Shown one piece after another: positions 2,719 through 53,787 of a stretch of 64,000 nucleotides of DNA. This DNA is from Clytia hemisphaerica (Eukaryota > Cnidaria > Hydrozoa > Leptothecata > Clytiidae), in NCBI GenBank assembly GCA_902728285.1, contig CACVBU010000758.1:496001-560000 (forward strand). The letters are read 5' to 3'. Position 1 is the first letter of the stretch; the number at the start of each line of letters is the position of its first letter. Under the pieces are notes generated by a model. It was not told the DNA's origin. It ran no database searches and was given only the letters and a program-made list of their open reading frames with translations. The position numbers and the translations under genes were made by a program.

Positions 2719-2720
2719 TA

Positions 2721-4130: not shown

Positions 4131-4143
4131 CTCAAAAATCGCA

Positions 4144-4605: not shown

Positions 4606-4654
4606 TAAGCCGTGCATTTTTCTGATAGTGGTTTTTATAAAGAAAAGCGCTTAA

Positions 4655-4915
4655 TAGCTTTTTGGACCTACCCCGGTGGGGAATAAATTAACATGTGTTC
4701 GTTCGTCCGTCCGTTCGTTCGTCTGTTACCAACTTTTCTCAGGATTGAATCATAAGAATCTTTTGATTTTTGGTACAAAGGTGGAAAATGGTGGTGGCCA
4801 AAATGTGACGGAGCCCGATTTTCGAAAAAAAAAATTTTTGGGTAAATTTTCGGCTAAAAAACGGGTTTTTTGGACTTTATGAAAAATGGATCATTAATTT
4901 TTTCTGATTTTTTGC
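4655..4915. repeat. Dispersed repeat, copy B
   Basis: Same layout as the copy at 3775-4130: ggacctaccccggtgggg, a gttcgtccgtccgttcgttc run, atgtgacggagcccgatttt, then aaaacgggttttttggactt. Confidence 0.75.
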
Positions 4916-4935
4916 TTTTTTATTTTTTTTTCAAA

Positions 4936-5265
4936 AGTCTTTTTCAGTAGTGTTGATAGTTTCTCTCAATAGGTATACTTTCATTTTCTTTATTTTTTAC
5001 CAGTTATGTCTCAATGTGATTCATTGTTTCAATGTTCATTGATTAGTTTGATAATCAGGTAGGTCCATAAAAGTATCACTTGTTTATTTCTTTTTCAAAT
5101 ATTTTTCAATAGTGTTGATAGTTTCTCTCAATAGATATGCTTTCATTTTCTTTATTTTTTTTGTATTTTGACCAGTTATGTCTTATGTGTTTCATTGTTT
5201 CAATGTTCACTGATTAGTTTGATAGCCAGGTAGGTCCACAAAAGTATCGCTTGTTACTAGGTGTT
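4936..5265. repeat. Tandem duplication, two units of about 165 bp
   Basis: Both units carry tagtgttgatagtttctctc, then ctttcattttctttattttt, ccagttatgtct, gattagtttgata and caggtaggtcca. The units are only modestly diverged. Confidence 0.8.
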
Positions 5266-11807: not shown

Positions 11808-11824
11808 GTGAGATTGGGTTTGTG

Positions 11825-12874: not shown

Positions 12875-13137
12875 GTTTGTTGTTGTTTGAGTTTCGAAAT
12901 CGAAAGTTGTTTTGGCGGATTGTTTCTAGCGTTGGCGTGTGTGTTCGTGGGCGGGCGGTGTCTTCGTTAGGTTGACGGGCGGCGCTCGCTGGATTATGGT
13001 TTACGGGTTATGGTGAGTGTGACCACGTCTACCAAAACAAGATGGCGAACAAGGCGAGTGGCGTACCTTGTGGAATCGTGTAGGATGGTTGACAATCGGT
13101 GAGTGTTCGCTATATTTTGAGTTTTCCTTCAGAAGTA

Positions 13138-20900: not shown

Positions 20901-23900
20901 GAAAATTGATATGAAGAGAATAAAATCTAGCTACAATCCAGATATCAATCCCTAAGGGTTTCTTTTTGTTCGGTCCTGCTGTACGTTTTCAAAGTTGCCG
21001 TCCTTGATGCTAAAAGTCATATCATAAAGGGAGCTGTTTTTTACAGCCCTCTTATGACTTTTGATCTAGCAGCGCATAAATGTTCTAAAAAAAAGAAATT
21101 GGGTTGGTGACGTCATCATAGGGGTTAATATTTACATTTACCAGTGATAAAGTACCCTCCACTAAAATCGCAATTAAAGTTAGAAACAAATATATATTTT
21201 ACAGTTCTGTTTTTATTTTCTCAAGGCCAGAATTTCTTTAACATATTTGTATTTGCCGGTTTTCAATCTCTACCAATGAAATCAGATGAGATGGAGTTTT
21301 TATAAATTACTTTAATAATTGGTCATTTGAAGTAATAAAAATGACGCGTTCTTTAGAAAAAAGTAACAAAATTGTTTTATTACTGGTTAACGATCAACCA
21401 AATCAAATAAGAGCTTGTAAAAACTTCATCTCATCCCAATGAAATATATGATGAAGAGTTTCATGCTCCCGGCAATTGTCAGAAGAGAGTATAAAAAGAT
21501 ATATCGTATCTTCAAAAAATTAAATAATCGAAAAACAAAATTGATTTGATTTAAAATTAAAAAGATGATATAATGATGCGTGTCTATTAAATAAATATTA
21601 ATTGCTAATTTTAAATTCATAATGGCCTCTTTACCCTGAACTGACTGAATTTTCTACGGTTGCTATTTTTGTTTCTTTCAAAGGTTTACCGAAAGGTTTG
21701 ACAATCGACTGTGGTGTGAAGATTATGAAATTATTTGGTGTGTTGTTACAAGGAAACATGTCGCTTAGCAACCCTGCATCTTTGGTTGCCATTTTGTCTT
21801 CACCAGTTGGAAAAGGTGAGCGTTTTCATAAAAGACTTTCTCTAACTAACAATTAACATCACAATACAATAGCCACTAGCCAACAAAATTATTGTACCTT
21901 AAGGCCTAAACACCCTCAGAAAATCTTATCGTCAACCAAAAGCGTTGGGATAAAGTTTTTTGGTAATTTTGATTTGCTTCGTCCTATTTAGAGAAAAATG
22001 ACAATTTTTTTGAAAATTTGTCAGTATGGTGGCCCAACAGGATGGTAGAAATAAAGATTTAAGCGCTTTACCCCCAATGCTGGACAAAAGGTTTGTAGAC
22101 TTCTGCAATATTTGCAAAATACTTCAATATCGATCAAAAACAAGTTTCCAAGAGGCTCTGGGGTCTTTGAAAGTCACCCACTGCAGTCTTACCGCAAGGG
22201 CAAACCACAAGGGCTTGATTAATTGGCTTACACCAGTATCAAAACGCTGGTTTTTTGCTTGTGGTTTCCTCAAAAGCAATTCAAAAGCAATGCAACGACT
22301 TCAAAAGTGTTTTTCTTAACTTCCATCCCCTTTCAGACACATTGAAGGGTCATTTTGCTCTATTTCTCATCATTTTTCACTGAAATTTCATTTGTCTACA
22401 ACCTTTTGTCCGGCATTGCCGGCAAAGATTCAGGAAGCAGTAGGAATCATGTTTAGAGTATAAAACTTTGGATTTCGACGCTCATTAGATGGGCAACGGA
22501 ACGGTTTTTGCTTGGTTTTTCGATTACCTCTGTAATTCGATATTTAGATTGTATGATGAAATTTTCAGGTAAATCAAAGATATAAAAGTAAGGTTTCATA
22601 TGGGTCACTGTAAATTCGAGATCAAATTCCATCTTGCTCATTTTGTGCTCCTTTTTACCCTGAACAGATCTTCCAAATTTGGTGAATATCGGACTATTGC
22701 TTGAGCTTGAATCTTTGCCAGGAGGTCTAATAGTGACAATTCGAGTAAATAAGAATTTTTTCCCATCATTTTTTCAAACAAACAGTCAATTTGCCAAAAA
22801 GACGACATCAGCGTGCAAGCAAAAATTATTTTCTCAATTTACATATGGGGCAACTTCTGGAATGAATTTCAGTCATTTTCAGTCATTAAAGGGTAAAAGG
22901 TTAACTTTCAGACCAATTTTAAATTTTCCTTTAACAAGTTTTGGTAGGATTTCCTACCAAAGAAATCACGTGACAGCAAGCAATTTTCTTGGTTTGAGAG
23001 ATGCGAAATAGCGTTTGCCGCTTACATTGTTTGATCTCGCGCTCCGAAAACAATTAAAATGCTAGATCCTATCCATCGGCACGAAGTTAAAAAGTCAAAC
23101 TTTTGCTTCACTTTTTTTTGCTGGAGAAAGCTTAAAGTTGCCTATCTAGCCTTTGGGTAATCTGTGACCAGACCCAGATCTGTGGGTTTATTCTTTAATT
23201 GCTCTTAAACGGTTTCCTTTCCCATCAGGCTTATTCATACATTTTACAAACACGCTCTAAAAGAAAATGCTGAAAATGGAATGAAAATTGAGCTTTATTT
23301 TATGGGGATAACTTGATAAAGTAATATCCCAAGTCTATTCCTTTGGACAAAAAGGAATGAAGAAAAAAAGGTCTTTTCTTTTCTTTGACAAAACACATGA
23401 CAACTGGCATTGGATTGTGTTGAGTACAGGCTATTCAGTTTGACTAGTTTGCATAACTTCACATCTTTATGAAAAAAGTCGATATATCGTAAGGTATTTC
23501 CTCTACAAATTCATATGTTTTTTTCCCAATGACGGACTCTCTTCATGTTACGTAATTTTAGCAGAATCTAAAACCCACTATACTATTGTTCAAAGTGCCT
23601 TTGCAAAATAAAAATAAATATGTTATATCATTTAAACTGGAGTTAAGCTTTGAATATAAAAAAAAACTGATTCCCACAGACAATTGGAAAAGTTTCAACC
23701 ACACAGATATCTTTTTGGTCAGCCTAAGCTGAGCATTCAAATCCCGGGGGGGGGTACTAGGTTTGCGAGGTGACGGGTATGTCCGAGCCGAAAATCGAAA
23801 ATCGACCCTTTGAGAGACAAAATTTTGGTGATTTTGGGACCCTTTGAGAGACTTTTTCCAAAATTTTGGTCCATTTTTTTCCAAATTTTGGTTTGATTGT

Positions 23901-26900: not shown

Positions 26901-29900
26901 AATCGATCATCACTTCCCTCTCATTCAAGCCCTGAGGCTCAAAGGTCTGGAGTTTGTTAATCCAGAAATCTTCGCGTACCCGAAGACTCTGTTCATTCTG
27001 GGATTGATCGATAAGTGTAAAATCCCAGTCCTCCATACCATTATAACCCTCCTGACAAAAATGAGAGTGAAATGACATTTGAGGCGCTGTTTCACCTGGA
27101 CTGCATTTCCGGAAACAAGATTTATAGTTGTTAAACCTGTTTCTAAATTTTACGGCGCTGCCTCCATATTGTTTTGACATGAAGGAAGTATATCTATAGA
27201 GGTCTGCGATTCAGACTACCATGGTAACTGAAAGCATAATACGTGCATGTCACTAGTTCTATTTATACTGAGACCATTAATTTGTCTGAGACGAGAAGTT
27301 TAGAAAATGAGAATTATGGAGGAGTATACTTTCCATTCAATAAATAGGATCTCCTCCACATATCACATTTTACAAACTACTCGTCTCAGACGATTTTTCC
27401 GTCTCAGTATAAATGGAACTATTCTCGCATCGACATTTCATGAAGTTTACCAATTCACAAATTCTTTCGGATAACTTCTTTCACGGACGTCATTGTTTCC
27501 TGTATCAATCCCTCGAAGTTCTTCCCACCACAACAAACGATCATTGACAGGTTCTTGATGGCGATAACAAGATTTGATTTCCGCATTATTCAATAAATGG
27601 CCATAGATATATAATTTCGTCATTTTCCCATAAAATGATTGCACGATTTCGTTGACCACGCCATTATCAACATCCTGACCCAGAACAAAGCCTGTGAGTG
27701 GATTAGCTCCTGTAGCTACTAAAGCTGAAACAGAAATGGCTTTAACCGCCATAAATTTACCATTGATATAAAACCTGGCGTCAATTGCACCACTAATTTG
27801 CTTAAGTGTGACGGCATAGTGGTTCCAACTCCCTGGTGCATCTGCTTTTCCAAAACATACTCCTTCCGCTCGGACAGAAACGCATAGAGTAAAAGACGGG
27901 CTTATGTTGACTTGAATCATTTTCAAGTCATCATTTTTTGGGAAAGTAAAGATATGCTTCCCAAAGAGATTGGATGGAGGGTCAGGTAGCATAAGCCAGA
28001 AGCTGAAAGATATTTCTTGACCGACATTGATCTCTTTTGATGGCAACACAGGTACACTCAATGTCGGTGTTTTAAACGTGATAACGTATTCCGATGATTC
28101 TGGAAAAGACATAGATACAGAGTATAATATAGATGAATAGATGTAGCTAAGAAAAAAAACGTATAGTCTGCTAATCGTAGCAGCACTTCTCTCATCGCCT
28201 CTCACCCACACTCCATCGTAGAGACCGGTTAGAAAGACTTCAAAACAGAAAAGGAAATGACGACAGACTCTCTACGGTAATGAATTTTGAGATTAGCCCT
28301 AGATATCGGGTCTGTGTACAAACTAAGGGTACGCTTACAGCATACAAAAGAACTTACTTAGAACAGGCTCATATTCGACAGCATCTGATGAAATTTGTTG
28401 TTTCTCTTCATCGCCACAATCCGCTTTGCCGCAATAACATTTTTCGTCAGCATATATCACTACTCCTCTTCGCTTATTATTACACATTAAAATACATTCA
28501 ACTCGAGACTTGTTCTCTATAAGCTCGTCTCCTATACATGGAAACTTCCGAACTGCAAATCTCCGGCAATCAACAATGAAACAAAGTATCAACCACAAGA
28601 ATAATCGCCAAAGACAGATTTTCGTTTTCATTTTCATTTTCAACTTTTAATATTGACAGCATTACTGATTTCAGCGAGAAATTTTTATCTCGAATAAACA
28701 ACAAATTTCAATTTTGTTTTTTATTTATATCCCAGGTGAAATCTCAATTATTAAAGCGGTAATCAAGTTTTCAAAATAATGAAAGAAATCTGTATTGAGG
28801 TGTCACGGGTTTGAATAATTAAAATGTATAAATTAGATAGCAATCAACAAAGAATAAATTTCAATTTTGTTTTTTATTTATACCCCAGGTGAAATCTCAA
28901 TTATTAAAGCGGTAATCAAGTTTTCAAAATAATGAAAGAAATCTGTATTGAGGTTTCACGAGTTTGAATAATTAAAATGTATAAATTAGATAACAATCAA
29001 CAAAGAATTATCCTTATTTAAACAACATTGTTTTTCACACCCATCTAAAGCTTTATGGAGGTTTGATATATGTTGTTATGACGTTTCGCGTCAACTTGGG
29101 TGATAACAAATACACCCCGTTCTCACAGACCCGGTAGGATTCTTTCAGCCAGTGGGGGTGTGCATAGCACTACTTTGCCACATCTCTCCTCGAGATTGGC
29201 TCGTTCATTCTTTATGATTTTTTGCACAAAGATGCATAACTGTAAACCCTTGAATGTGACGGAGCCTGATTTAAAAAAAAAGGCTAAAAAAAGGGAAATA
29301 TTGGATCATTGTTTTTTTTCTGTTTTTTGCATGAAAGTAGATAAAAGATGGCTCAAGCTAATTTTTGTAAAAAAAGAATTTTTCAGCTCAAAAAACGCAT
29401 TTTTATTTATAAGAATCACTATTAATAAGCATACATCAATGTTCTTAGCCAAATTACTCAATTTTTTGATAAGATAGATGGGTTTTTTTTGCTAACGAAG
29501 TCTTGAATATGAATTGAATTTTAGTTTCTAAACGTTTTTCTTATAAGAAACAAACGACTAATTTTAATAGATCGTCACTAAACTTTTTGAACGTAAGCAA
29601 ACTCTACACAAGGCCTCTACTTAAGCTTAGGGAAATTCCCCACCCTTCAAGATCTTAAGTAAAATTTTACGTACATGTGAAAAAAGCTTAAGGCCTTAAA
29701 ACATTACGCAAGCTTAGGGAAATTAATTACTGGGCTATCCACGTCAAATATCGAATCTATCTATCCATATTCAATTGGAAACAAAAACGTTGCTCTCTTG
29801 TATATGAAAATTTCCATTTTGATTTATATTGATTTACGTTTCAGTTCTCGATTCATGGGCGAAGATACCATCAGGTCTTCTGAACGGGAACACAAGATGG

Positions 29901-32900
29901 TATGGTGCTTATGATGAATGTTCAGCCATTCCTGATGTCAAATATTGCTCTGTGGGTATGAAGGTCGTTAGCCAGGTTTGTGCACAAATAGTGTAATACT
30001 ATACACGCTTGACAGTTTTTTTTGGGTTTAAGCGAGTCGAATTTTCTTTCATTTTCAAGGCTATTTAAAAAAAAAACTTAACAATTTCCATAACATTATT
30101 ATTTTTGTCGTTTTTGTGATACTTAAAAAATGGTCGGATTCGGCTGAAATTTTGCACACTTGTTCTTTGGGTGAATAACTGGGGGTGTTTTTTTTCTTTC
30201 TTTTTTTTCAAAATTTTATCTTAAGGGCGTGATCACAAGGTTAGACCAAAACGAGGCTAAAACTTTTCTTATATCAAAAATTTTCTGTTGATTGGGCCTA
30301 TGAGTAAATAAAACATACTGAAGTTGAGCCATTGCGGTTAGCACATTTGACAGTTAGAATATTCCTAATATTATGTATTCCTAACCTAAAAATACCGTAA
30401 GAATATTTTAAGATGACTTTTCCTAAAAAGTTAAAAATATCCATGATGAAATGGAAAAATACCGTTCTTTATAATAACTTTTTCTGGGAGCTGAACTTGA
30501 AAGATTTTCGAGCAGAAAATATGAAAAACATCAAAAAGTTTATTTCTTAGGAAAAGAAGACGCAGCTATTGAACGGCTCAAATCAACGATGTAAAAATAA
30601 TAGATAACCAACTACCTCTAGAAGGCACTTCTCCCAAGAGAACAACCATTGTTTTCCTATTGAAATGAGCACTCCTTCAAATAGCTCTGTGTGCAGTGCG
30701 TGTTATGCTTTTAGCTAGATTTTGACACACTTTTTGACATTTGACATCCACTGAATTGATAGCAAATTTGAATTGTTATTTACTGCACATTTTGGAATTT
30801 TTTTCAAAAGATAAAGGTACCAATCTTTAGAGAAATTGACTACGGATCGGCCTGATACCACTTAATCTTCATCTGGATAAATAAACGCTCATAAAATGAT
30901 GTTATCTGAAAAATATATGTGTGATTTGAAGTGCGATATCTCACGAATGAAAAGTGCATGAAGGTTGCCTGATACAAAATAAACAGATGAATGTTTATAG
31001 AACAATAATATCTAATTAAAAAATTCCTTCTGTGAGGCTGCCTATAGGAAAATACACTTTTTCTAACCCAAATTTTGGAAAAAATATACATCACGTGATC
31101 GATTCTGTCAAATAGAAGGTTGCAAATGAAGCAAGTTTTTATTTAATTGCACTTTTTACGATGCAAAATGTCATTAATATTTTTACAACCGTAACACGGA
31201 TGTTTTTTGAGAATCAAGGCAAGTTGGTTATCTATTATTTTTACATCGTTGCTCAAATATCACGATAAAGACTAGCTTTATCGTCAGCTAACTTGCCTAT
31301 TCTTGGCTAAATAGACGATTTTCCGATTTTACAATTTGAAGTTGTTTCTGACTAATCTACAGTGACAGAATTGCTTCTCTTCTGCATTTCGAGGTCTAAT
31401 TTTAAGAAAAAGAAGGGTGTGGCAAGGAAAACATTGTTATAGAAACTAACATTAACACGAAACGGTTATATTGTGCTACCTTATTGGCTCATTTTACGCG
31501 ACCCTAATTTTACACCGGCTCCTTTTACCCCGGCCCTTATTACGCCAAGAGCCTAAAAAATAACGCCAATAAGGGCCGGCGTTAAAAGGGCCGGTAAGGT
31601 ATCGCAAAATATTGCATAACTCTTATTGTAAGCAATTCTGATTTAACCATAGTGATTGATCTTTACATTTTTAGAACGGAGTTTATGGCACGTGTATGCC
31701 AAAAGAATGTACGGAAAATGACGTGGCGTCTGTCTATTCAGCTATTATCTCCAAACGTAAGTTCTCTACAAAAACATCATAAAAACTTTAAGTTTTAGTT
31801 TTACATGATGTTCCCGTTTCATATCTGAAATATGTTATATATCAGGCCGTTGTTGTGCTGAATAAACAAAAAAAAGCTAAACCTATCTTGCTCCACATCC
31901 TGGTCAATTCAATGTGAAAAAGTTTGTTATTCAAAATGATGAGTTTAAGTAAACGATATCAGAGATTAAAACAAAACCTTTGATGGTGAATTGATTAACT
32001 GATTGATTAATTGGATAAGGATGGTTTCAGTCGCATTCCGTTACCAAAGAAGATGCTAAAATACTCTTTGTGCCCGATAAACCCTCCGTCTTCCTTATCT
32101 GATATTCCTATGGTGGATTGGTGGCAATGCTAAAGCTCTAAAGGAGCGGGCTAATTTCCCAATTTTTCTACTATTGCGCGTAAAGCTGAAAATATTTTGG
32201 TTGAACTCGCCAATCACCGAAACAAGGGCTGGGGTCTAGGACTACCGCTGCAAAATCGCTGACACAGTTTTGAAAAATTCCGCAATCTAAACCTTCTAGA
32301 TGTTGAAAACTTTCCCGCTCTTAAGAGCTTTAGCATGTCGGATTGAATTTCTGTATCTGGCGCCAGAAAACCGTCCCCCTTTAATCTACCCCTAGCTTGT
32401 ACCACCCCGCCACGAGTGTTTTTTATATTTTGAACTTTGCGTTATCTTTTCAGTCAGCGAAGAAGAGTCTAGGCTAATCTACCCCTTCCCTAAACAATGG
32501 CGAGATATGAAGGATGTATTTGTTAATTTTTGAATTCTTTTTTCTTCAGAATTGGGAGGTGCCATTCAGTTTACTGACGATGAGAAGTATGTTTGGTGCG
32601 ATGGAGAAGATTTCTCTTATTCCACTGGGTTCATCATCACATTGTAAGTACACATGTTTCCAGTAGCGTAGCCAAGAGGGGCACAAAATTTGTATGGGAG
32701 AGCAGATTTTTGTGACAATGTAATTATCTATTCATGTGGTATTAAAAGATAATTATAATGGGATAAAAATCTGCTCTCCTGCACAATTTTTTTTTGGCTA
32801 CGCTACTGTTTTTATAAATAAGAATAAACTATATAAGAGCATTAAAAGCTTCCATGTCAGCAATATTAAGAACAAGTTAAGAATTGTAATGCTTTAAGGT

Positions 32901-35900: not shown

Positions 35901-38900
35901 CACTTTTTGGGATTTCTTTTTCCATATAGCGGTAAGATATACAAGATATAAGATCATAAAAAATCATCTAAAACATCAAATACTTCGTGTCCGGAATTTT
36001 GGCAGGAAAGTAGATTTGGAGACAAGACAGAACAAAAAAAACTGAATTTAGCATAATTTAGCGGAAATTTTCTGATTTTTTGTGAAATCCTTGAAAAAAG
36101 ATAATTTTGGAGCCGGGTTTTTTCTATCTATTTAGACGATGAGACGGGATTCAGGGAAGCAGATAAAGTCACTACACTATAATAATCTAGGCTCAAATTT
36201 TCAACTGACTGTGTTCAATAAAAACTTTTGTGATTTCTTTATTTATTTTAGATAATACCCTAACAGCTGCTGGTACAATCATGAAACGTTGGACTTCACA
36301 GGCTATTCTTAACGCTTTCCCTTCCGTCGATACCTTCTTTTTGTTAAGGTAAAGCTTTAATTGCTCTGTTCCTAGAATAGGCGTCAAAGTTCAGGAGTCC
36401 GCCCCTTACATGGGCATGCAATTGCGTTTAAAAGATCGAAATCCGTTGAAACATTTTTCTTCGGTAATGTATCTTTGGTCAGGATGACCGCCCAGGGTGT
36501 TCCAGGGCGTTTTAAACTTTATACCATAGTATTATAGTCAGTGAGTTTGAAAAATTTAGACCAGAGGTCAATCTTACATACCCTCAGAACATTCTGACGA
36601 GTTCACTCGTCATTTAGTCGCGAGCTCCTAAACGAGGTTATGCCGAGATAACCTGTCATCAGTCTTTTTGGCACAGTCTGTTAAAAGACTTAGTGCAGCT
36701 AGAATTTGATACTTTCCTAAAATCGAATCGCAAAGCTCGAGACAATTTATCTTTTACCCGCGGTATTTTTGACACGAAAAATAAAAGGGTTGGTCGTTAT
36801 AAACTTCTTAGCTCTAGTTTAGACGGTCCACTTTTCGCCCTATTCTATTTGTGAATTAAAGTGGGCATAAAGTGGGCTGTCTAAAGTCAATACATTGCCC
36901 CTTTTGATGTCAATGCAATGACTTCTCTCTATCTGTTCCAAGTAAAGATTTTAACTCCCAACTCCTTGCCGGCATACTGGAGAAGTGGGACGTGGGACGG
37001 TGGGACGCTCAGGTGGGACGCTCGAGTGGGACGCTCAGGTGGGACGCTCAAGTGGGACGGTAGTGGGACGCTAAGGTGGGACGGTAGTGGGACGCTAAGG
37101 TGGGACGGTAGTGGGACGCTAAGGTGGGACGGTAGTGGGACGCTAAGGTGGGACGGTAGTGGGACGCTAAGGTGGGACGGTAGTGGGACGCTAAGGTGGG
37201 ACGGTAGTGGGACGCTAAGGTGGGACGGTAGTGGGACGCTAAGGTGGGACGGTAGTGGGACGGTAGTGGGACGCTAAGGTGGGACGCTAAAGTGGGACGG
37301 TAGTGGGACGCTAAGGTGGGACGGTAGTGGGACGCTAAGGTGGGACGGTAGTGGGACGCTAAAGTGGGACGGTAGTGGGACGCTAAGGTGGGACGGTAGT
37401 GGGACGCTAAGGTGGGACGGTAGTGGGACGCTAAAGTGGGACGGTAGTGGGACGCTAAGGTGGGACGGTAGTGGGACGCTAAGGTGGGACGGTAGTGGGA
37501 CGCTAAGGTGGGACGGTAGTGGGACGCTCTTTTATATGTATTTTGTCTTTTTCTTTTTATAATACAGTGAAGAGGGACAGGTCAAGTACTTATAAACAAT
37601 ACACAGATCGATCGAAATGTTTTTGACTTTTTTCATAGTGAATGGATTATAAAATAATAACATAATCAATTTGATCGAAGCTACAAAGACCTAGCCCATG
37701 AGGTCCAAGGTCAGTTCACCCGTATATGCAGTAGTGTTTTTTATAAGGATTTTTGAATTGCGTAGTACTGTATCGGCTCGATAGGGGTTGGTCTAAAAAG
37801 CAGGGTAGCCAATGGGGTAGCCAATTGGGCTAGGTTACGGGGTACCTCTTTTTGCCTAAACTTTTGAAATCTGAAACCTGTTTTCATGTGGAAATAACTA
37901 TACAACATCTTGTTAATGATTCCATGTAATAAAATTAAAGATTCCTTTCGAACTTCAGCCACAATAGCCTTTTTTCCAAAGGTACTGAACTTTGTTACTT
38001 CTCAAGAGACCTTGCGCCATTTTGTCTTCCTTCTTGGCTTCGTTTGAAAATTTACAGACCCGAATAAAAAATATATACAAAACAGTTTTTAATATTTTAG
38101 ATTTAGATTTTATTTATGTTTTTAATTGTTATTTCCGTGAAGCTGTAATTCGATGATAATAGCTTTGGAATCGCCTTTGGGCCATATGATCTCTAATCTT
38201 GTCATATCTTAACAATCCTTTGTTATTGAATCTATTGTTTAATTTAAATCATGTTTAGATGTTTCAAACAATTAATTCCTTTCAAAATTTTTAAATATGG
38301 CAGCTTAAAATAGGTACAAAAGGTCTTTTAAAAAGCTCTATTATAATGAAGCTCTATTTCTTACTCCTCGTGCATTAACACGTGGTAATTTATATCTTTG
38401 TTTATCTTTGGAATCATACATGATCAATCTAAGTATCAATTAGATTCATGCTCCCTGGTCAGTAAAATGTGGTTCTATGCATTCATTTTCGGTATTTCTA
38501 TTCTGGTCTGTAAAATATTTAGCTACCCCACAACCTAGCCCAATTGGCTACCCCAATTGGCTACCCTGCTTTTTAGACCAACCCGCTCGATAGTACATTG
38601 CTAGCGTGCCGGACTCAGAATCGTTGACAAGAGACTTTGGTAGTTCGAGCCAGGGTCAAATTTTCAGTTTTGAAAAAAAATTCTAAGTCGCAAGGCGTTC
38701 TAATCATTTAGCTACATTTCACTCTTGGTGTTTTCAAGTTAGTCTTTAATTATTGGAAATATGAATTAAAAAGGAAAATACTTTCATTTGTCTTTTTTTC
38801 TACGCTCAATGTCAATTTTCAGGATAGGACTCGAGGTTTGTTTACATCAGAGGAAACCCCGTTCTATTTAATTGTTAAAAAAATTCCATGACACAGCATT

Positions 38901-41900
38901 CGAAAAAGTAGAATAATTGGGCTTTCCACAAGTATATTACTTTTTGATAAATATAACGAGATTGCTCACGGAAATATCTAACCCGGGCCTGTCAATCATT
39001 TTCTAGACCTGTCAATCACTTTTTTGGCAGCATATTCAGTCAGTTTTGCTTTTCTTTTCATCGTGGTTCTGAAAAAAGTGTTTATAAGATATAATAAAAA
39101 AAGACGAAAGCCAATTTTTTTAGCATTATTTTAGTTGAAAGTTTTGGAACATTAGATTTTCAAGACAAGGGAAAGACATAACTCTTGACTCTTGACTCTC
39201 CACCCGCTAATCAAGGGGGGGGGGTTACCAATTGACAGTATGCTTTAGCGTGGGCGGCCGCCAATACGCCATCGGAATATCAGATAGCCTAAACCGCTGC
39301 AGATACCCGTCGCGGCGTCGGTCAATTTGCCTGACTGCCCCCCCCCCCAATTTTTGTTTCTTAAAATTTTAACGGAAATTTTCAAAAATATCAATAAGAG
39401 CTCATAAAACCAGAAAAAGTTTGATCAATGTTGACAAAACAGACAAAATAACACAATTTTCGTCGCACCCGTATAGGATTCAAACTCTCTATAATCATTA
39501 CCCTTAAGTTGCCGTTTCATCGACTTATCCACTCGGCCACGCAGCTGATGTGCAAGAGAAGTGAACAATGATTATTATGAGACCTTTATTTTGCCATGAC
39601 TTGTATAATTTTACCCTGTCAAGGTATTGACTTCTTAAAGAAATGATTTTAGATTATTTCCAACATGCAAGAGCCGATTGCACTAAATATATATAACACT
39701 CGAAAACTATCATGTTATATTTTTTTGTAATTAAATCTTGCATCAGCAGTTTTGAAACAAAAGCATGCTATATTTTTATGTAAAATTATTTTTATAAAGA
39801 GAAACGCTTCCTAGGATTAAAGGAAATAAACCAGCTGTGCTGGAAGGTCAGCCCGAAAGGATAAGAAAGATTAGAAGATAAGAAGATTAAAATAATTAAT
39901 TCAAGGAAAACTAGTTGTCCCTTATTTTCCAAGGAAAATTAGTTATCGCGTATTTTCCAAGGAAATTTAGTTATTGCGTATTTTCCAAGGAAATTTAGTT
40001 ATTGCGTATTTTCCAAGGAAATTTAGTTATTGCGTATTTTCCAAGGAAGATCACTAGACCGTATTTTCCAAGGAAAATCACTGGTCCGTATTTTCTGAGG
40101 AAAATAGTTGTTGCGTATTTTCCAAGGAAAATTAGTTGTTGCGTATTTTCCAAAGAAATTTAGTTATTGCGTATTTTCCAAGGAAATTTAGTTATTGCGT
40201 ATTTTCCAAGGAAGATCACTAGACCGTATTTTCCAAGGAAAATCACTGGTCCGTATTTTCTGAGGAAAATAGTTGTTGCGTATTTTCCAAGGAAAATTAG
40301 TTGTTGCGTATTTTCCAAAGAAATTTAGTTATTGCGTATTTTCCAAGGAAGATCACTAGACCGTATTTTCCAAGGAAAATCACTGGTCCGTATTTTCTGA
40401 GGAAAATAGTTGTTGCGTATTTTCCAAGGAAAATTAGTTGTTGCGTATTTTCCAAGGAAAATTAGTTGTTGCGTATTTTCCAAGGAAAATCACTGGTCCG
40501 TATTTTCTGAGGAAAATTAGTTGTTGCGTATTTTCCAAGGAAAATCCTTTGTTCCGTTCTTTCCCAGGAAAATCAATTTTCACGTATTCTCCAAGGAAAA
40601 TCACAGCACTTTATTGATTTTCTTTTGAAAGAAAAGGTATTTCCCTTGCAAAAAATACAAAATAACTGAAATTCCTTGAGCAATCATTAGTTGAATTTTT
40701 CTTTTTGAAAAAGAAGATTATTATTCCCTTGAGAAACCACAGAAAATCAATTTCCTATGCGAAAATTCATAGCCTGTCTTATTTAATTGGAAATACAGAT
40801 TTTATTCATTTTTCTCTTGGAAAACTGCTCAGAATGATGATTTCACAATCTGGGGGGAGGAGTCTTCAAAAGTCATGCATCCGACATCATCTAGTCCAAC
40901 AGCTAAAAAGTCCGATAAGGCAATCGAAGGTTGCTCCAGTTTTTCCGAACCGATTTTGTCCGGCAAAAAGTGTCAAAAGAATATTTGTTTCAGAAAAAAC
41001 GTTATTAGCCTGTCTGACTAGCCAACCAATTTTTAACACTTCAAAGTAGGCGGAGGACCGTGTCCTTCTAGTACAGACTTTTAAACTAAATTTAGGGAAA
41101 AAATCTCTCAAAGGGTCCCAAAATCATCAAAATTTTGTCTCTCAAAGGGGCGATTTTCGATTTTTGCCTCGGACATACCTGTCACCTCGCAAACCTAGTA
41201 CCCCCCCCCCCGGAGCATCCGTACCCCTTTTTGCCAATACCCCCCCCATGTATATCTCGAGGAAAGTGTATTGGAACTTTGTATGATTCAAAGACAGATG
41301 TGGATAGATTAGTTTAGAAAAGAAAAAAAAATACGTGTGGGGGAATCGAACCCTGGACCACCTGATCTTGAATCTGATGCTCTACCGACTGAGCTAGTTA
41401 ATCATGTTTCTTCGATGAGAGCAAATGTTTTTATATTACCATAAAAAGTAATAAAAAATGACGTAATGTAATTGCGTAAAACATTTTCATTCGCGCATAC
41501 AAACAATAGGCAGGATTTTCATTGTTATTTTGTCGATACTGGCGTAATCATTTGAGAGTATTCCGATCAGAATAACAACTAATACTGAAAGTATTCATTT
41601 ACTCATATTGAGTTCTTTTTTACTCGTACATAATTATCAGAGAAGCAAAAATACAAAAGCCTTACGAGAGAGCGTCCCACTACCGTCCCACCTTAGCGTC
41701 CCACTACCGTCCCACCTTAGCGTCCCACTACCGTCCCACTTTAGCGTCCCACTACCGTCCCACCTTAGCGTCCCACTACCGTCCCACTTTAGCGTCCCAC
41801 TACCGTCCCACCTTAGCGTCCCACTACCGTCCCACCTTAGCGTCCCACTACCGTCCCACCTTAGCGTCCCACTACCGTCCCACTTTAGCGTCCCACTACC

Positions 41901-44900
41901 GTCCCACCTTAGCGTCCCACCTTAGCGTCCCACTACCGTCCCACTTTAGCGTCCCACTACCGTCCCACCTTAGCGTCCCACTACCGTCCCACCTTAGCGT
42001 CCCACTACCGTCCCACCTTAGCGTCCCACTACCGTCCCACCTTAGCGTCCCACTACCGTCCCACCTGAGCGTCCCACTCGAGCGTCCCACCTGAGCGTCC
42101 CACCGTCCCACGTCCCACTTCTCCAGTATGCCCTCCTTGCCCACTTTCTGCCCACTTTCTAACAATAAGATTATTATCCATTCATTTTAGCGGTTTACTG
42201 GTAGCCTATATCGCTCTACGACGAATGGATAAAGACAGTGGAAAAATTAATTATGGCATGTACGTCTTGCATCGATTTATAAGGTAATTTATTCTTTAAT
42301 TTCTAAGTTCGTGTAAGAGTGTGTCCTTTAGTTTCACTGTTTTTCGCTGCATTGTATATATGACCTCAATATTGGCCACTAATTAAGTTCAGTGTCGGTA
42401 GATAATTTGCAAAGACGAATGGGCTCCCTTCAAACTTATTTTAATTAGTGTCACAGCAACTTTCTACAGGTGGCAAGGATATGCCACGCCGGAAATGCCT
42501 ACTTTGTTTTCTAGAACAACTTTTTTTCGAATGAAAAGCAAATATTTTTTGCAGGGCAAGTCTCTTTATTTGCCGTGACGCAAGGTTACAGAAAACCCGT
42601 CCATCGTTGCAAATTAATATTAGAAAATTAGCTACTGATACTTACTTAATCGCGCTATTAGGTTTTTGCGGAGAGATAAATAGTACAAGAAAGAAGTACT
42701 TACCCAGCTGGCACACAACGTTGTTTCAACGTTCACCTAATGTTATATGGACGTTGTGAACGTTAGATAAACGTCGAAAAAACGTTGTGTGCCAGCTGGG
42801 TAGTCTCATTCTTATTACTTCATACTTTTCTTGCTTATATAGATTGACACCACCATACATGCTTGCCATCTTATTTTGGAACAATATCGTACCTTGCTGT
42901 ACATCTGGTCCAAATGCGAAGGCAACCCGTGAAAGGGGAGACGGGGGTGCTTGTAACAAATATTGGTGGACTAACTTATTGTATATCAATAATTTCCACC
43001 CTGAAAAGATGGATGAAGAGGTAACAGCCTAAATTAATTATAATGAAATCAAACCATTAATTTAGGGTGTTAGGGAAGCAAAGTGAGACTCTGTACCTCG
43101 ACTGATACTACAAAAGGGGGTAAAATATAATAATATTATTTTGATAAAACTAAATGTCCCCAAATTGAAGGCCAAGGCAAGGCAAATGGCAATCATTCGA
43201 GTTTTGAAGAGGTCAAGCAATAGAGGGCAATGATACCCCCAAGGTAAGGTTATCCCTAGTAGTGGAGCATCAAAAACCGTTCGAGTTAGACGAAAGGGGT
43301 GCGCTATACGGTTTGCCAACTGAAAGGATCAGAAAACTTGATTGAGTTATGGAGAATTCGAGTTACAGAAGTTCGAGTTGAATAATTCACTTTAGAGCAT
43401 TAAAACAATGCAATTTAATATTATTCTTTACCGTCTATCCAGTACCATAGGATGGCTAAACTTTCTCATTCCCGCTGAACATTCATGATGTATCTCCCGA
43501 AGCTTTGCGCTGCTTTCAATAAGCAACCGGCTGGTGACTTTGGCAGCTTAGCAAGTTGAAGCTTTCTATTTACCTACCTAGAATTTCGGTCTTTTCCGTT
43601 GTAAAGTAGCGATAGAGTGCTGCTTTCCCGTGCATACCGGCAATCTGCTGCACACAAGTATGTAGTCTCGGTCTTTTCCGTTATAGAATACCGATAGAAA
43701 TGTTTAGCTATTCTACGGATATTGTTCTCTTCCATTCGGATATTTTTCAGTCAGTAAATTAATTTGTTCCTTTTATCTCGTAGTGTTTTGGTTGGGCTTG
43801 GTATTTGGCAAACGACATGCAATTCTATTTAATCGCACCAGCATTTCTCTACGCTTTCTATAGGTGAGTGTGTTAGTTCTTCTTGGGTTTAAACTTAGGC
43901 TAATAAGCTAGTCCCTTTACGAAAAAGTCAAGTTTCAAATGCTCAAAATGACGAATCAAGAACATATTTTTTCGAGGTCCTTTATTTTTTTAAAAACATC
44001 GTTATCTGGTATTCGATGTTAAAATCTCTTCAGACACGCTGAAACTCAAAAAGTCATTTAGAGCTCGAGCGTGGGTGGCCGCCAACCATCATCAGAATAT
44101 CAAATGAAAAACATTCAAACAACGTCTAGACTTTAACGTCTAAATAACGTTAGATAGATGAGCATTAAGTTGTACATAAGCAAGGACAGGGGCCGAGAAT
44201 TAGTTTGAATTTTAGAAAGGACTCAAACAGTAGAAGTACGATTTGGCGAATTTGACTCCTTTAAGTCCTGCACTAGGTTATGCTTTTTATTTATTTGACA
44301 CTATTTCCTATACAGGCTTGAACGTCGTTTCGCTAACACGAGATACCGTCATTTCGGAGCATTTATTGTTACAGCAGTTTGCTGCATAATTAGTGTCATT
44401 ATTCGAATCATATTTTTCGAAGTCAATGAATATCCAGCTCTAATCACAAAAGGTCAAGTTCCCGGACAACCTTACCCGTAAGTAATGCCATTGTTCAACC
44501 AATATGCTCCAAATATAACAAATCATACATCGTTGAAAAGTTAATTCAGAGAAACTATCACTATTTGGAAAAATAATTTCAAATATTTTTGCAAAATGAA
44601 GATGAAAAATGAAGAAGAAAAAAATTCTTTGATGCTATAAACTTACGGAGGGCAACTTAAGGTGGGTGACCTGCCTAGGAGCGGCTCGCTTTAGGATAAT
44701 TTTTTTAGGTCTCCCAAAGTGCACTGTTTCCCATTTGTGGACAAAAATTTAAATGATTCACCATAGTGTAGATTTGGTTACTTTTGCTCCATTTTTGATA
44801 AATTTCTCTACACTGTAAGGTTCCAAATCGAAAATACATTCGTTTTCAGATCGAGTTTTTATGTATTACACCTTTTCGACTGTAGCCGCCAAATACCGCG

Positions 44901-47935: not shown

Positions 47936-47942
47936 TTACTAT

Positions 47943-48624
47943 TAAAGTCTATTTACGATAAGTGTGCACTCTTTTTTCATTTACCTATAACTTTACAAGG
48001 AAGTCTTTTTAATCTTTATAAATTTGGTATCGTTGGAGAGATATTTGTGAGTGGAACAATTTAGAATAAAAAAATCTATAAAAAAGTTCTAAAAATGAAG
48101 ATGAAAATGAAGAAGAAAAAAATGAAGATCTTATAGAAAGGTGCTATAACTATCATTTTCACTGAAGTGAATCCTTGATCATCGAGCGTCATTACTGTGA
48201 AAAAATTTCTCAAAAATAATCATTCAGTCAAAAGATATCAAACAAAGTTATAAGCTACGTCTGAAAACGCTGTTTTCTGCTTTTTTCTGCTGTTTTTTGG
48301 GGTCAATCACTTATTAACTTTGTATCATAACTTTATCTTGAATAAATATTTTAGTAAAATTTTTTCACAGTGATGACCTCCTAAGATCAAAGAATCTCTC
48401 CAGTGAAAATGAAAGTTACAGCACTTCTCTACAAGATCTTCATTTTTTTCTTCTTCATTTTCATCTTCGTTTTTAGAATTTCTTTAAAGACTTTTTTATT
48501 TCAAATTGTTCTACTCACAAATTGAAATATCTCTCCAACGATATCAAATTTTTAAAGATTGAAGAATTCCTTCGAAAGTTATAGGTAAAAGAAAAAAGAG
48601 TGCACACTTATCGTGAACAGACTT
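47943..48624. mobile_element. ~680-bp hairpin element, copy 1
   Basis: The two halves are inverted copies over nearly the full length (aaagtctatttacgataagt at the left, cacttatcgtgaacagactt at the right). The centre lies near gctgttttctgcttttttct. Arms share gtgtgcactctttttt, tttacctataacttt, tgaagaagaaaaaaatgaag and tgtgaaaaaatttt. A fragment lies near 44580-44625. Confidence 0.88.
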
Positions 48625-49076
48625 CAACTTTACACCTGTATTACTATTCAACTATTACACCTTTCGTGGCATCATTGGACCATTACATTACTCATCCTCG
48701 ACACGGAAAATTGTTCTTCCCAAAGAGGTTTGGACACCAGTGGTGTATTATAATCTAATTGTATATAAAAAGCCCTAAAGTAAGGCTTTTATAATAATTC
48801 GCTTATAATTTTCAGAGATTTTTATCAGAGTTTTAGATTCAAATGTACTTCATCTTATTCATATCTATTCATAACATCTTTTTGTAAATTTGTGTCTGAT
48901 TTTAATTATTGTAACTATTTGTAGATAAAATTTGATGATTTACTTATATGATTTTAAAGATTTTATATGTTTTCCATGATATTAGAAATTTTATATTTAT
49001 AAAAGTGATATCATTCTCATAGTCTGTGATAACTGAAAAAAATGGTTGGTGTAGCTTATTTATTTATACACGTTTT

Positions 49077-49429
49077 TTTTTTATTAGAACCTAGTTTATA
49101 AGAACATATAGGCTAAAATTCGTCGAAAAATTAAGAACATCTTAAGAACATGCCCATCCTTAGTTTGGAAAAAAATGACGAGAAACTACAATTTTTCCCT
49201 CTTTTTAAGCAGTTTTAACCGAATTTAGGGTTGGATCTTCAAAAGTCGAGAGTCAAATATTGTCCAAATTTTGCCAAAGTTAAGTGCTCTTTATTTTGTA
49301 TCATATTGTCGATTTAGAGTAGTGTGAAAAATTTTAGGCTGAAAATTGCTAAAAAAAAATTGCTAAAAAAAATAAGCACATCCAGGCTTAGCCAAATTTT
49401 AGGTGTTCTAATAAAAAAAAAAACGTGTA
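49077..49429. mobile_element. TACACG-family MITE
   Basis: Starts tacacgtttttttttt and ends aaaaaacgtgta; internal gaacatcttaagaacat. About 353 bp. Confidence 0.7.
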
Positions 49430-49721
49430 CCCCTCCCCACAGACCCACTAGGACCCCCCTCCTACTGGTAAGATTGGCCAAAATATCGTCCACAATGGAA
49501 AATTATACTCCAATTATAATCCCCGCTGATGATTATAAAAAGAAAAGAGTTGCTCACTGTAAAATATTGTGGCTATTTCTGCCTTCATACGTTTTTTTTC
49601 TGACTTTAAAACAATGTAATTAAGATCCCCAGCCTTGAAGAACATGGGAATATCAATCGAATTTCAGTTCGTCATTTTACCCCTTCTGTTCGAGAAGAGT
49701 GTGTTCATTTTCCTTATTCTA

Positions 49722-49996
49722 TACACGTTTTATTTTTTTTAAGAAACACACTTTTAAGAAACATGAGGCTCAGAATGCCTAAAAACTAAGAAACATCTAA
49801 GAAACATGCTGAGAATGAGAAAATAACATTTTTTAATTCGTTTTTTAAGAACCTTCCAATCCAGCCTTCCATGAGACTGATTATGTCAAAAAGTTTAGAA
49901 ACATGTAAGAAACATTTAAGGCTCAAAAGGCCGATTTCTTAAGAAACATTGAGGCTGCTTGGTAAAACTAGTTTCTTAAAAAAAAACAAACGTGTA
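49722..49996. mobile_element. TACACG-family MITE, aagaaaca subfamily
   Basis: Starts tacacgttttattttttt and ends aaaacaaacgtgta. Its interior words are ttaagaaacat rather than ttaagaacat, so it is a distinct subfamily. Confidence 0.7.
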
Positions 49997-50720
49997 CTTC
50001 CTTTTAAAAACCTCTGCATAATTGTCTTAAAATAATTGACTTTAAATTGTCTTTTCAGGAGACAAAATTGATATAAATTTTTAATATTATTACTAACACG
50101 TTAAAATACAAAGAAGGGAAGATCTTACTAGAATTAGTCATTACTGGTCATCTTGGTGCGATATACTGGTTCATAATATAGCAACGTTCACGGTTGACAT
50201 CGTACAACAACAGCATACTATCCTCTATTTGCATGGTAAAATGATGTGTTTATTGAAAACCATTGAAAGGAAAGGACTGGGGCTGATCAAAGAATCTCAA
50301 CTAGGAGCAGACAACATTCAAATAACATCCATTGAACGTCCATGACATAACTTTGATCTAACTTGGATAATTCTTTGATGAGTCTTCTATTGCCTCATAT
50401 TTTGTGTTTATAATAAATACCTTATCTTCGATGGTCCTATGTATCGAAATCAAAACTCTGTGTCATGGATTTTAACCCCACCCCCAGGATACTTATTTTT
50501 GGCACTTCTTTGGCCGCTGGGTGGACTGTTGGGGCAGTTGGTCCTTCTGTTTCACCTGCCACCACGCTACCTATATCTGCATCTTATAAAGTTCTCTAAC
50601 AATTTCATGCTTCTTGTAGACTTAGCTGTACTTTCTGCGGTTTTGGATAATAATCGGGATAATAATACCCCCTTCTCACCGACCAGGTAGGATTTTTTCG
50701 GCCAATGAGGACAAAAATTC
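49997..50720. other. Non-coding stretch
   Basis: Short frames here (for example 50439-50690) have no recognisable domain. The word ctcaccgaccaggtaggatt near 50676 is related to cacagacccggtaggattct at 29117. Confidence 0.5.
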
Positions 50721-50724
50721 AGAA

Positions 50725-51272
50725 GCAGCCAACGAGCCCTTTTCCCCGAAATATCTGTTTCCCTTTTCCAGGAGAGAGCTTTTTTTGAAAAATGGGGAAA
50801 CAGATCCGACTTTCTAGGAGAGACCTTTTCCTTAAAACTATCTGTTTCCCCGCTCCAGCTGATGACGTCATCAGAGAGAAACAGATCAATATTTCTAGGA
50901 GATGACATAATAAATTGGGAAACAGATATCTGTTTCCAAAAAAGATGATATTGCATTGGAAACAGATTGAACTTTATGGGGAAAACAGATATCAATAACA
51001 AAAAGAAAGGGAAACAGATGAAAATTTCCAGGAGAGGGGAACAGATATCCTATTTGGGAAAACAGATCAAAATTTTAATTCTGAAAATTGTGGAAACAGT
51101 TCAAATTTTCTAGGAAAGATACTTTGAGATTAAAAATTTAGGTTTTGCGGAGAAACAGATCTTCATTTCTAGGAATAAGATTTTTGAAATATTCGGCCAA
51201 CAGATCAAATTTTCCAGGAAGGCTATGTCTGGGAAACAGATATTTAAAAAAAGGTCCTCGTTGGATGCTTTC
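50725..51272. mobile_element. Hairpin-ended element filled with GGGAAACAGAT motifs
   Basis: Left end agcagccaacgagc, right end ctcgttggatgct (inverted). Roughly fifteen copies of gggaaacagatc or its inverse fill the interior at 30-60-bp spacing, many followed by a tttctaggaga word. No coding frame. Confidence 0.75.
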
Positions 51273-52394
51273 GAAAAATTGGAGGATAATTTTCCACCGG
51301 TGACAATATTTTGGCTATAAATCTAACTATGTGTCGAGTGTAAAGGTCAAAATCAGCAAAGATGAGAAAATTGCAATCTAGGGGTGTAAGATTTAGAAAA
51401 TCTTTGCTTTAAAAAGGTTTGCCTGAAAACGGTCGACCGAAATGGTTGATTTTTCGTCAAATTGACTCAAAATTTACTAAATATTTATTGCACTATAAGG
51501 GTCAGATTTCAAAGATCTAATGTTGGGCCGTACGTACGGTCGTTTTATAATCGAGTGCCCCCCCCCCCATGGGGAGCTATTAGGGTTCCTTGATTTCCTC
51601 TCTTCAATATTTCCCTATAGGATGAAATCGATTACTTTGCGCCAAACTTTGAAATTAATTGCATGGTTTCTTTCCTTTTCGAATGTTTTGATTTTGCGTT
51701 TCTATGCTTTTGTTTTCAATTATAAATGACGTAAGGTTTATACTTAGTGCGTTGTTGATTGGTTCTTTACGATATCAACAAGGCTTACGATTGGTCGAAA
51801 AATACTAGAAATCACCAGAGCGTGAAATTAGAACGGATAATTAGACTCACAAAATGAAAATCGTTCTTTCGCGTCACGAGGCCTTCATGAAAATACTGTT
51901 TTGAAGATGTTGAAAAGACAAGAAGTGGTTCAGAATAAAGTTTTTTTAAATTTCCGGATATTTGAAAATATTGGAAATATTTGTTTTCTTCTCGTTCTGT
52001 ATTATTTAACCAAAGTGTCAGAGGTAAGCGGTTAATAATGTTTTTATTTTCGTAATTTATTTTGAAATTCAACGATTCCCTCTAGGAGTTAGTTCAAGGC
52101 ATTGACGCATGTGGGATTCCCTATCTTCATAGGAAGATACCATGTGGATAATTTTGAACCTTCCTCGTCCTTTGAATGTTTATGTTTATGTTTCTTTTCT
52201 TTGTAGTTGATGTAAAGTAGTACAAATTGTACTTAGCTCAAGGCTAATCAATATCAACTTTTAATTACAAATCTATCTAAAAGGTTGATACTCAAAATCA
52301 CGTATTATTTACAAATTAACTTAAATTCAATCGATAAAAAAACCAACGCCATGGATAAAGGTGTGACAGTTTCGGCAAGGACAAGTAGTGGGCA
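51273..52394. other. Non-coding stretch
   Basis: I see no gene. A poly-C run at 51558-51566 and AT-rich sequence only. Confidence 0.5.
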
Positions 52395-52797
52395 GTACCT
52401 TTACGGCCAATCACAATTTTAGCTTCTCAAATCTAAAATCAGCCTCTCAGATTTGGAATTCGGCTTCTCAGATTATAATTTCAATTTCTCAGTTTTATGA
52501 TATCTTTTTACTATTAAAGTTTTTCTTCTTCAAAAATTAAGAATTGATTATTTTGCTTCTCAAATCATCTTTCCAGCTTTTCAGATCATCTTTTCAGCTC
52601 CTCAGATCATCTTTTCAGCTTCTCAGATTAACTTTATAACTTCTCAAATTGAATAACTGTGTTCTAATTCAAGTTGATGCCTGAGTTAATGCTATTGGGA
52701 ATAAATATAAGCTGAACAGCTGATTTGAGAAGCTGAAAGACTGAGAGTAAAAATTTGAAAAGTAGAATCGATGATTGGCCGAAAAATACCTCTCATG
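52395..52797. mobile_element. Hairpin-ended element filled with CTTCTCAGATC motifs
   Basis: Left end gtacctttacggccaatca, right end tgattggccgaaaaatacct (inverted). The interior has about twelve copies of a ~21-bp word around cagcttctcagatcatcttt, in one orientation on the left and inverted (tttgagaagctga) near the right end. Architecture parallels 50725-51272. Confidence 0.75.
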
Positions 52798-52961
52798 GGG
52801 CCTCCATTGCTACTTCATGATAAATTTTTTTGCCTTTTTTGCCTTTGCGTAGAACTCTTTATTTGCTTTGTTTGCATTTTTAAGACATCTTAGTTTCGGA
52901 CGATTGTGACCAATCTCTATTTGACAACCTTAAAGGGCCCCCTTAAAGGTCTGTTTGATAC

Positions 52962-53645
52962 TAAAGTCTGTTCACGATAAGTGTGCACTCTTTTTTCTTT
53001 TACCTATAACTTTTGAAGGAATTCTTCAATCTTTATAAATTTGGTATCGTTGGAAAGATATTTGTGAGTGGAACAATTTGAAATAAAAAAGTCTTTAAAA
53101 AAATTCTAAAAACGAAGATGAAAATGAAGAAGAAAAAAATGAAGATCTTGTAAAGAAGTGCTACCATAACTTTCATTTTCATTGGAGAGATTTTTTGATC
53201 TTAGGAGGTCATCACTGTGAAAAAATTTTACTAAAATATTTATTCAAGATAAAGTTATGATACAAAGTTTATAAGTGATTGACCCCAAAAAACAGCAGAA
53301 AACAGGAGAAAACAGCGTTTTTAGACGTCAATCAGCTTATAACTTTGTTTGATATCTTTTGACTGAATGATTATTTTTGAGAAATTTTTTCACAGTGATG
53401 ACGTTCGATAATCAAGAATTCGCTTCAGTGAAAATGATAGTTATAGCACTTTTTTACAAGATCTTCATTTTTTTCTTCTTCATTTTCATCTTCATTTTTA
53501 GAACTTTTTTATCAATTTTTTTACTCCAAATTGTTTCACTCACTAATATCTTTCCAATGATACCAAATTTATAAAAATTGAAGAATTCCTTCAAAAGTTA
53601 TAGGTAAATGAAAAAAGAGTGCACACTTATCGTGAATAGACTTTA
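52962..53645. mobile_element. ~684-bp hairpin element, copy 2
   Basis: Same family as 47943-48624, with cleaner ends TAAAGTCTGTTCACGATAAG and its inverse ending agactttaa. The arms pair over about 330 bp each. Confidence 0.9.
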
Positions 53646-53787
53646 ACATATGATATATTGTTCGGATTTTTTTCATAGTCTTTACAGAGGGTGTTTGAAT
53701 TCTTCGATTAGCAGTTATTCATTTTGGAAATAAAGGCACTGTTCTTGGCATATGATTATTTTCTTATTATTTTTTCCCCATTTATAG

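Follow-up and report, generated by a model that had tools for sequence, protein, structure and literature searches.

Foldback anatomy is a trait of the FB element of Drosophila. Galileo-type elements, which use a P-type transposase, make 7-bp duplications and differ in this from the elements described below. Here we analyse a stretch of 64,000 nucleotides from the hydrozoan Clytia hemisphaerica (assembly GCA_902728285.1, contig CACVBU010000758.1, positions 496,001 to 560,000), termed the window, in which positions 36971-42132 constitute one mobile element of 5,162 bp. This element and the genomic family to which it belongs have the Foldback architecture: long inverted terminal repeats made of short tandem repeats, in the window copy and throughout a set of 27 copies.

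The closest described systems are of the Mutator type. Tm1 of root-knot nematodes, a Mutator/Foldback element of the Phantom group, has the same architecture together with a Mutator (MULE) transposase (PMC3169594). In both Tm1 and the Clytia family short tandem motifs make up composite terminal repeats, duplications measure 9 bp and a distinct inner motif is present; further, most copies are non-autonomous, interiors differ, and array lengths are unequal at the two ends (PMC3169594). However, the Tm1 unit of about 14 bp is present in 1-9 copies between asymmetric 7-bp ends, whereas the Clytia family has 11/13-bp units, 5-55 per arm, and the same 14-bp motif at both ends. Tm1 also has a known putative transposase, unlike the Clytia copies read (PMC3169594). 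Muta1 and its relatives from Aedes aegypti, type 2 Foldback elements, display a short terminal motif followed by 12-bp subterminal tandem units and make 8-9-bp duplications; as in the Clytia family, Muta1 derivatives mostly have their ends in common while repeat number varies (PMC5225508). The Muta1 arm measures 145 bp with 9 units, compared to up to 675 bp in Clytia, and its MULE transposase is known and active in yeast (PMC5225508). Tetris resembles the family by its Foldback anatomy, 8-10-bp duplications and the lack of a known transposase, yet its unit of about 220 bp lies in an intermediate domain, a comparison made by description (PMC4079207). Galileo, of the P superfamily, has long arms with repeats which contain transposase binding sites (PMC3688188). 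An earlier note on this DNA, made from the letters and their open reading frames, had likened the locus to Drosophila FB. The Foldback architecture stands, but it is not peculiar to FB, and Mutator-type Tm1 of nematodes and Muta1 of mosquitoes are closer.

The boundaries of the window element are precise. The 20-bp terminus GGCATACTGGAGAAGTGGGA is found at 36971 on the forward and at 42132 on the reverse strand; these are the only two matches in the window at up to 3 mismatches, with 0 expected. The 9-mer CTCCTTGCC occurs exactly twice (0.27 expected), directly outside either terminus, and forms a perfect 9-bp duplication. The window was scanned for inverted ends of 10 bp or longer accompanied by flanking repeats of 8-10 bp. 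Four matches emerged, i.e., the outer element, a nested element and two with a palindromic flanking repeat; the same inverted-end scan returned none in 40 first-order Markov sequences. The arms, 36971-37530 (560 bp, 46 GTGGGAC cores) and 41669-42132 (464 bp, 38 cores), are inversely oriented and identical over their outermost 76 bp; a global alignment gives 459 identities, 3 mismatches and 96 gap positions. The 24-bp period of the arrays is composed of an 11-mer, GTGGGACGGTA, and a 13-mer, GTGGGACGCTAAR, both built around the GTGGGAC core. Proceeding from outside to inside, each arm starts with the 14-bp GGCATACTGGAGAA, continues with cores in 7-, 8- and 13-bp units and then with mostly alternating 11/13-bp units, and ends with GTGGGACGCTCT. 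G4Hunter means of the two arms are about +0.99 and -0.97. The earlier note was thus exact about the arrays, their common 20-bp ends and inverse orientation, and the flanking 9-bp repeat; its proposal of a single Foldback-like element in place of two unrelated minisatellites is supported. The features of the element are:

36962..36970, forward strand: left copy of the target-site duplication, CTCCTTGCC
36971..36984, forward strand: left 14-bp terminal motif, GGCATACTGGAGAA
36985..37530, forward strand: left arm array with 46 GTGGGAC cores; units of 7, 8 and four times 13 bp, then 11/13 alternation with breaks; inner end GTGGGACGCTCT
37531..37690, forward strand: left subterminal block inL, 160 bp
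39902..40601, forward strand: internal 28-bp minisatellite
41339..41396, reverse strand: tRNA-like fragment, 27.8 bits, under the Rfam gathering score of 29
41586..41668, reverse strand: right subterminal block inR (the 85-bp query covers 41586-41670)
41669..42118, reverse strand: right arm array with 38 GTGGGAC cores; inner end GTGGGACGCTCT
42119..42132, reverse strand: right 14-bp terminal motif, GGCATACTGGAGAA
42133..42141, forward strand: right copy of the target-site duplication, CTCCTTGCC

Because inL differs from inR the element has polarity, i.e., a left and a right side. As previously claimed, it carries no transposase-sized frame: the longest frame outside of the arrays comprises 127 aa, and none of 10 interior frames had a Pfam match reaching the cut-off (best match Transp_Tc5_C, E=0.027, 15.3 bits compared to a cut-off of 27.4). 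The element pieces 39242-39286 and 41088-41209 recur elsewhere in the window (59076, 32125, 44068; 23746-23866), and thus the interior holds other dispersed repeats. By eye, tRNA-like stretches are seen at 39465-39550 and 38590-38660, uncalled by ARAGORN and Rfam.

A search of the assembly (417,433,876 bases, 951 contigs) demonstrates that the window element is a member of a multicopy family. The 20-bp terminus has 220 + 219 = 439 matches with up to two mismatches, whereas a reversed-pattern control yielded 0 + 0. Of 196 candidates for a left-arm query 40 were scored, and 68 matches resulted. Around the best-scoring of these, 30 regions were fetched, and 25 of them hold 26 further complete elements of 1,421-6,321 bp, selected by terminus matches with up to 4 mismatches; together with the window copy these are the 27 copies (designated below by locus, L009 etc.). 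Five loci (L021, L029, L035, L036, L037) displayed one terminus only and stand outside this set; L036 was later completed as a 14.6-kb copy. Among ambiguous end pairings a longer pair in L017 and a shorter one in L034, neither with a duplication, were dropped. Perfect 9-bp duplications flank 22 of the 27 complete copies. The other five have 8 bp (L022, L033), 7 bp (L019), 9 bp with one mismatch (L013) or none (L028). When left flanks were paired with the right flanks of other copies, 0 of 702 combinations matched. The 28th copy of 14,604 bp (C649:1790631-1805234) has a perfect 9-bp duplication, too. Thus, copies with the same termini, the prediction by which the earlier note proposed to check its element, are plentiful.

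The first 21 bp, i.e., the 14-bp motif plus the first core, are identical at 53 of 54 ends and the first 44 bp at 42 of 54; as copies were picked by terminus, only the latter figure is informative. The first three bases are GGC at all 54 ends, in one family chosen by terminus; G/C-rich first three terminal bases are reported for arthropod MULEs (PMC13359780). The block inL is present at full length with at least 96% identity in 26 of the 27 copies including that of the window (L027 is without it), and inR with at least 98.8% identity in 25, including L020 at 77 of 85 bp (L010 and L026 are without it). Arms vary from 80 to 675 bp and hold 5 to 55 units, with two main linker lengths. The GTGGGAC core is exact in 1520 of 1561 units, a figure biased by locating units via cores with at most one mismatch so that worse cores were missed; the linkers vary. 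Rare unit variants common to both arms of one element were encountered in 0 of 114 variant-by-element cases, and the variant GTGGGACTGTA, present in 17 of the 27 elements, is always in the arm next to inR. Copying from arm to arm is rejected on these grounds, and there is no sign of hairpin-mediated conversion. Since the two arrays of an element differ in length and have no rare variants in common, the arms drift independently.

The DNA patterns had 0 matches in the viral_contigs and prokaryote genome_contigs collections. A protein search with the array frame returned four unnamed ENA proteins, best E=3.8e-5. Three of them (P0002-P0004) have GTLRWD-type repeats like the translated arms, and P0004 reads GIPEKWDPGTWSGTLRWD where the window element reads GILEKWDVGRWD..GTLRWD, which resembles a translated terminus. 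Judged from such likenesses, other contigs may carry relatives whose ends are similar; chance or composition may also account for the resemblance of P0002-P0004.

Interiors fall into at least two groups which have mainly the arms, inL and inR in common. The window copy belongs to group A; in its interior, stretches reach 98.4-99.5% identity with L011 and L012 and 97.6-99.0% with L032. Some stretches are less similar to other copies, down to 78-90%, mostly over the minisatellite. The latter is matched in several copies of subfamily A, skipped in L011 and L012, and unmatched in subfamily B. The shared subterminal blocks, the two interior subfamilies and interior stretches of up to 99% identity indicate that the family spread recently and looks young. 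Empty sites were probed with the joined flanks of 25 elements, and related empty sites emerged for three (L009, L015, L023). When joined, the flanks of L015 form a sequence which continues without interruption in L026 (297 bp, 93.9%) and L012 (247 bp, 95.5%); those of L009 and L023 do so in neighbouring repeats (220 bp, 94.1%; 254 bp, 89.8%). Other elements with 20-48 gap positions were left uncounted, as was the window copy, whose match at 79% identity stops 15 bp beyond the junction. Of note, the copies L012, L015 and L026 sit in related dispersed repeats, a hint of target preference or of an insertion refuge.

In none of the copies read was a transposase gene of their own seen. The longest interior frame comprises 76-180 aa in 26 of 27 copies; that of L019, 354 aa, is a reverse transcriptase by Pfam. 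Apart from L019, nine long frames from nine siblings had no Pfam match reaching the cut-off. Such a frame search overlooks transposases that are spliced or decayed; a recognisable MULE would be caught by a search of the genome. In the latter, 150 of 157 candidates were scored for the MULE domain PF10551; 91 matches exceed the cut-off, and 19 of the 91 fall into open frames of at least 400 aa. The 14.6-kb copy was considered as autonomous partner and rejected: its gene lies in a separate insert of 12,389 bp (C649:1791015-1803403, loci L039/L036), which has inverted ends of its own, TAGACAGGCAGCT, and is flanked by a 3-bp duplication, TTG. The shared sibling junction is not an internal deletion either, as the siblings L030 and L017b run straight through the insert site. 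The insert, presumably Academ-like, holds a multi-exon gene with XPG-like and CXC motifs recognised by eye; Pfam CXC scores 18.6 bits compared to a cut-off of 23.5.

We consider it probable that this is a multicopy non-autonomous Foldback-type cut-and-paste transposon, moved in trans most likely by a MULE transposase. A transposase made elsewhere would recognise the 14-bp terminal motif and the arrayed GTGGGAC cores, pair the two mirror-image arms, excise the element and, at a new site, insert it via a cut staggered by 9 bp. The many cores would be redundant putative binding sites; array length drifts independently on the two arms. GTGGGAC is a predicted binding site because the core is kept while the linkers vary, and because arm arrays of Galileo hold binding sites. 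The MULE superfamily, as in Tm1 and Muta1, is the best guess since MULE target-site duplications measure 8-11 bp (PMC6446971), a range which includes the perfect 9 bp of 22 of 27 copies, since the genome has MULE genes, and since Tm1 and Muta1 are published precedents. Several points weigh against it. The 27 copies, drawn from the best-scoring arm matches, are no random sample. A 9-bp duplication alone identifies no superfamily. Around the 138 exact termini listed, the nearest MULE match is 127.7 kb away, and none falls within 100 kb (0.6 chance pairs within 10 kb are expected); the 138 leave aside an extrapolated 10 or so exact termini which follow an A on contigs beyond C549, and about 290 termini with 1-2 mismatches. 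Therefore no autonomous copy was found, and the full-length transposase-encoding copy which the earlier note proposed to look for did not turn up. Finally, the one MULE locus read, L040 (C605:307300-312300, 5 kb), has only AT-rich 12-13-bp inverted matches and no arms. Its open MULE frame of 601 aa shows a Cys/His cluster which by eye is SWIM-like, and close to its 3' end 5.2 copies of a 51-bp minisatellite continue in frame; this minisatellite recalls those reported for Rehavkus and aphid Phantom (PMC6446971).

The lack of MULE neighbours near the 138 listed termini argues for a transposase of another superfamily, for example Merlin, P/Galileo-like or an undescribed one, acting on the same Foldback-type element, with Foldback arms having arisen more than once. 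The 7-bp duplications of Galileo-type elements speak against the P variant, as 7 bp are seen only in L019 of the 27 copies. Foldback architecture does occur with different transposases (PMC3169594, PMC4079207), but the predominant 9-bp duplications fit the 8-11 bp of MULEs (PMC6446971), and we regard another superfamily as unlikely. Even less plausible is an assignment to Rehavkus, a sister group of MULEs described with 9-bp duplications and a minisatellite ahead of the 3' inverted repeat (PMC6446971). The duplications agree, and in the window copy the 28-bp minisatellite (39902-40601) lies ahead of the right arm; yet this minisatellite is 1.1 kb away from the arm and is skipped or unmatched in the copies mentioned above, and no PHD-finger transposase is linked to the family. 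The earlier note had itself named a single misassembled array as what would overturn its view. Arrays are indeed hard to assemble, and exact copy numbers may be wrong. However, 439 termini, 22 of 27 places at which ends pair in opposite orientation between matching 9-bp duplications, and related empty sites contradict an artefact or two unrelated minisatellites: since other copies share the termini, the window arrays are not one misassembled array, and for the family this explanation is already refuted. Beyond the transposon itself we tentatively raise a broader possibility, a hydrozoan radiation of sequence-unrelated 9-bp-duplicating elements, each with its own tandem-array arms and served by few transposases. 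The window and the fetched loci contain at least four sequence families with 9-bp duplications and tandem-array arms: GGCATACTGG.., GGGTTGGTCT.., GAGGCCCGG with 15-bp AAAAACCCGAGTTAC units, and GAGTCTGCTAAATTACGTGGG... If such a radiation took place, tandem arms would be a selected scaffold for multivalent transposase binding which evolved repeatedly and let elements outlive their autonomous parents.

The presence of MULEs as such in Cnidaria is on record (PMC6446971), and Foldback-type MULEs are published for nematodes (Tm1, PMC3169594) and insects (Muta1, PMC5225508). In the open-access literature searched, with most subscription papers outside of it, we found no cnidarian report of Foldback-type elements with 9-bp duplications. 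The present family adds such elements in a hydrozoan. What stands out is how long and regular its arms are, and that several other 9-bp-duplicating families with repetitive arms occur around it. The arms form a clean natural series, i.e., one 7-bp core, two main linkers, 5-55 units and unequal numbers within an element, and so the role of long arms in binding, specificity or drift becomes testable. A warning also emerges: in such genomes, an array that looks like a minisatellite can be the end of a transposon.

The 5.2 kb had been taken as one element. This is correct for the outer element, but the interval includes a second, independent one at 37785-38584 which was missed earlier:

37776..37784, forward strand: left target-site duplication of the nested element, GCTCGATAG, perfect 9 bp
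37785..38584: nested element of 800 bp, inverted ends GGGTTGGTCTAAAAAGCAGGGTAGCCAAT.. with repeated GGTAGCCAATTGG
38585..38593, forward strand: right target-site duplication of the nested element, GCTCGATAG

The nested element is present in 0 of 26 siblings of the outer element, and in 10 of these the site is uninterrupted; five of the 10 empty sites contain the exact 9-mer GCTCGATAG once and five a one- or two-base variant. Genome-wide, termini of the nested family number 292 + 276 = 568 with up to two mismatches (control 0). In the first 100 on the list, the members of a pair are mostly separated by about 800 bp; a few pairs, 4-5 kb apart (C128:1212028, C170:2018648), might be longer members.

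Further elements were seen in passing. Two elements in L039, one inside the other (740-5183 and 3490-4688) and both within the 12.4-kb insert, have perfect 9-bp duplications, GTTCTTGAA and ACAAAAATG; their arms consist of short repeats, the 15-bp AAAAACCCGAGTTAC and TCGTGGGT, respectively. Inverted-repeat elements with perfect 9-bp flanking repeats are located at L027 3892-4583 (TAAACAAAG), L027 4724-5397 (AAAATTTTT) and L029 4178-4854 (GTCGGCGGT), and one with a perfect 8-bp repeat, TTTCTAGT, at L033 3733-3977. In the window, 30584-31251 is an element of 668 bp; its inverted ends, CAACGATGTAAAAATAATAGATAACCAACT, measure 30 bp, and its 7-bp duplication, CTCAAAT, is perfect. The inverted repeat at 47942-53646 was considered as a second Foldback element and rejected. 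It is made up of one palindromic element of about 685 bp, present twice in inverse orientation (47942-48624 and 52964-53646; 639 identities, 36 mismatches, 16 gap positions), and a search at its outer ends gave no repeat of 5 bp or longer. Gypsy-type frames occupy 8391-12925 on the reverse strand, with reverse transcriptase, RNase H and integrase by Pfam in 8391-11978; 11825-12925 had no match and is gag-like by eye. A LINE-type reverse transcriptase with endonuclease (by eye) lies at 144-2748, reverse strand.

The window element resides in an intron of a host gene, as noted before; the flanking exons join over a split Ser codon to give ...DTFFLLSGLLVAYIALRRM.... Their bounds were counted by eye:

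about 36252..36348, forward strand: host exon upstream of the intron
about 42191..42283, forward strand: host exon downstream of the intron

The Pfam match of the host gene to Acyl_transf_3 (E=9.8e-7, 28.6 bits) is below the 31-bit cut-off, and thus the designation as an nrf-6-like acyltransferase is presumptive. Elsewhere in the window a pentraxin-like frame of 274 aa (27447-28271) matches a single listed protein, from Clytia hemisphaerica, with 94% identity across 71% of the frame.

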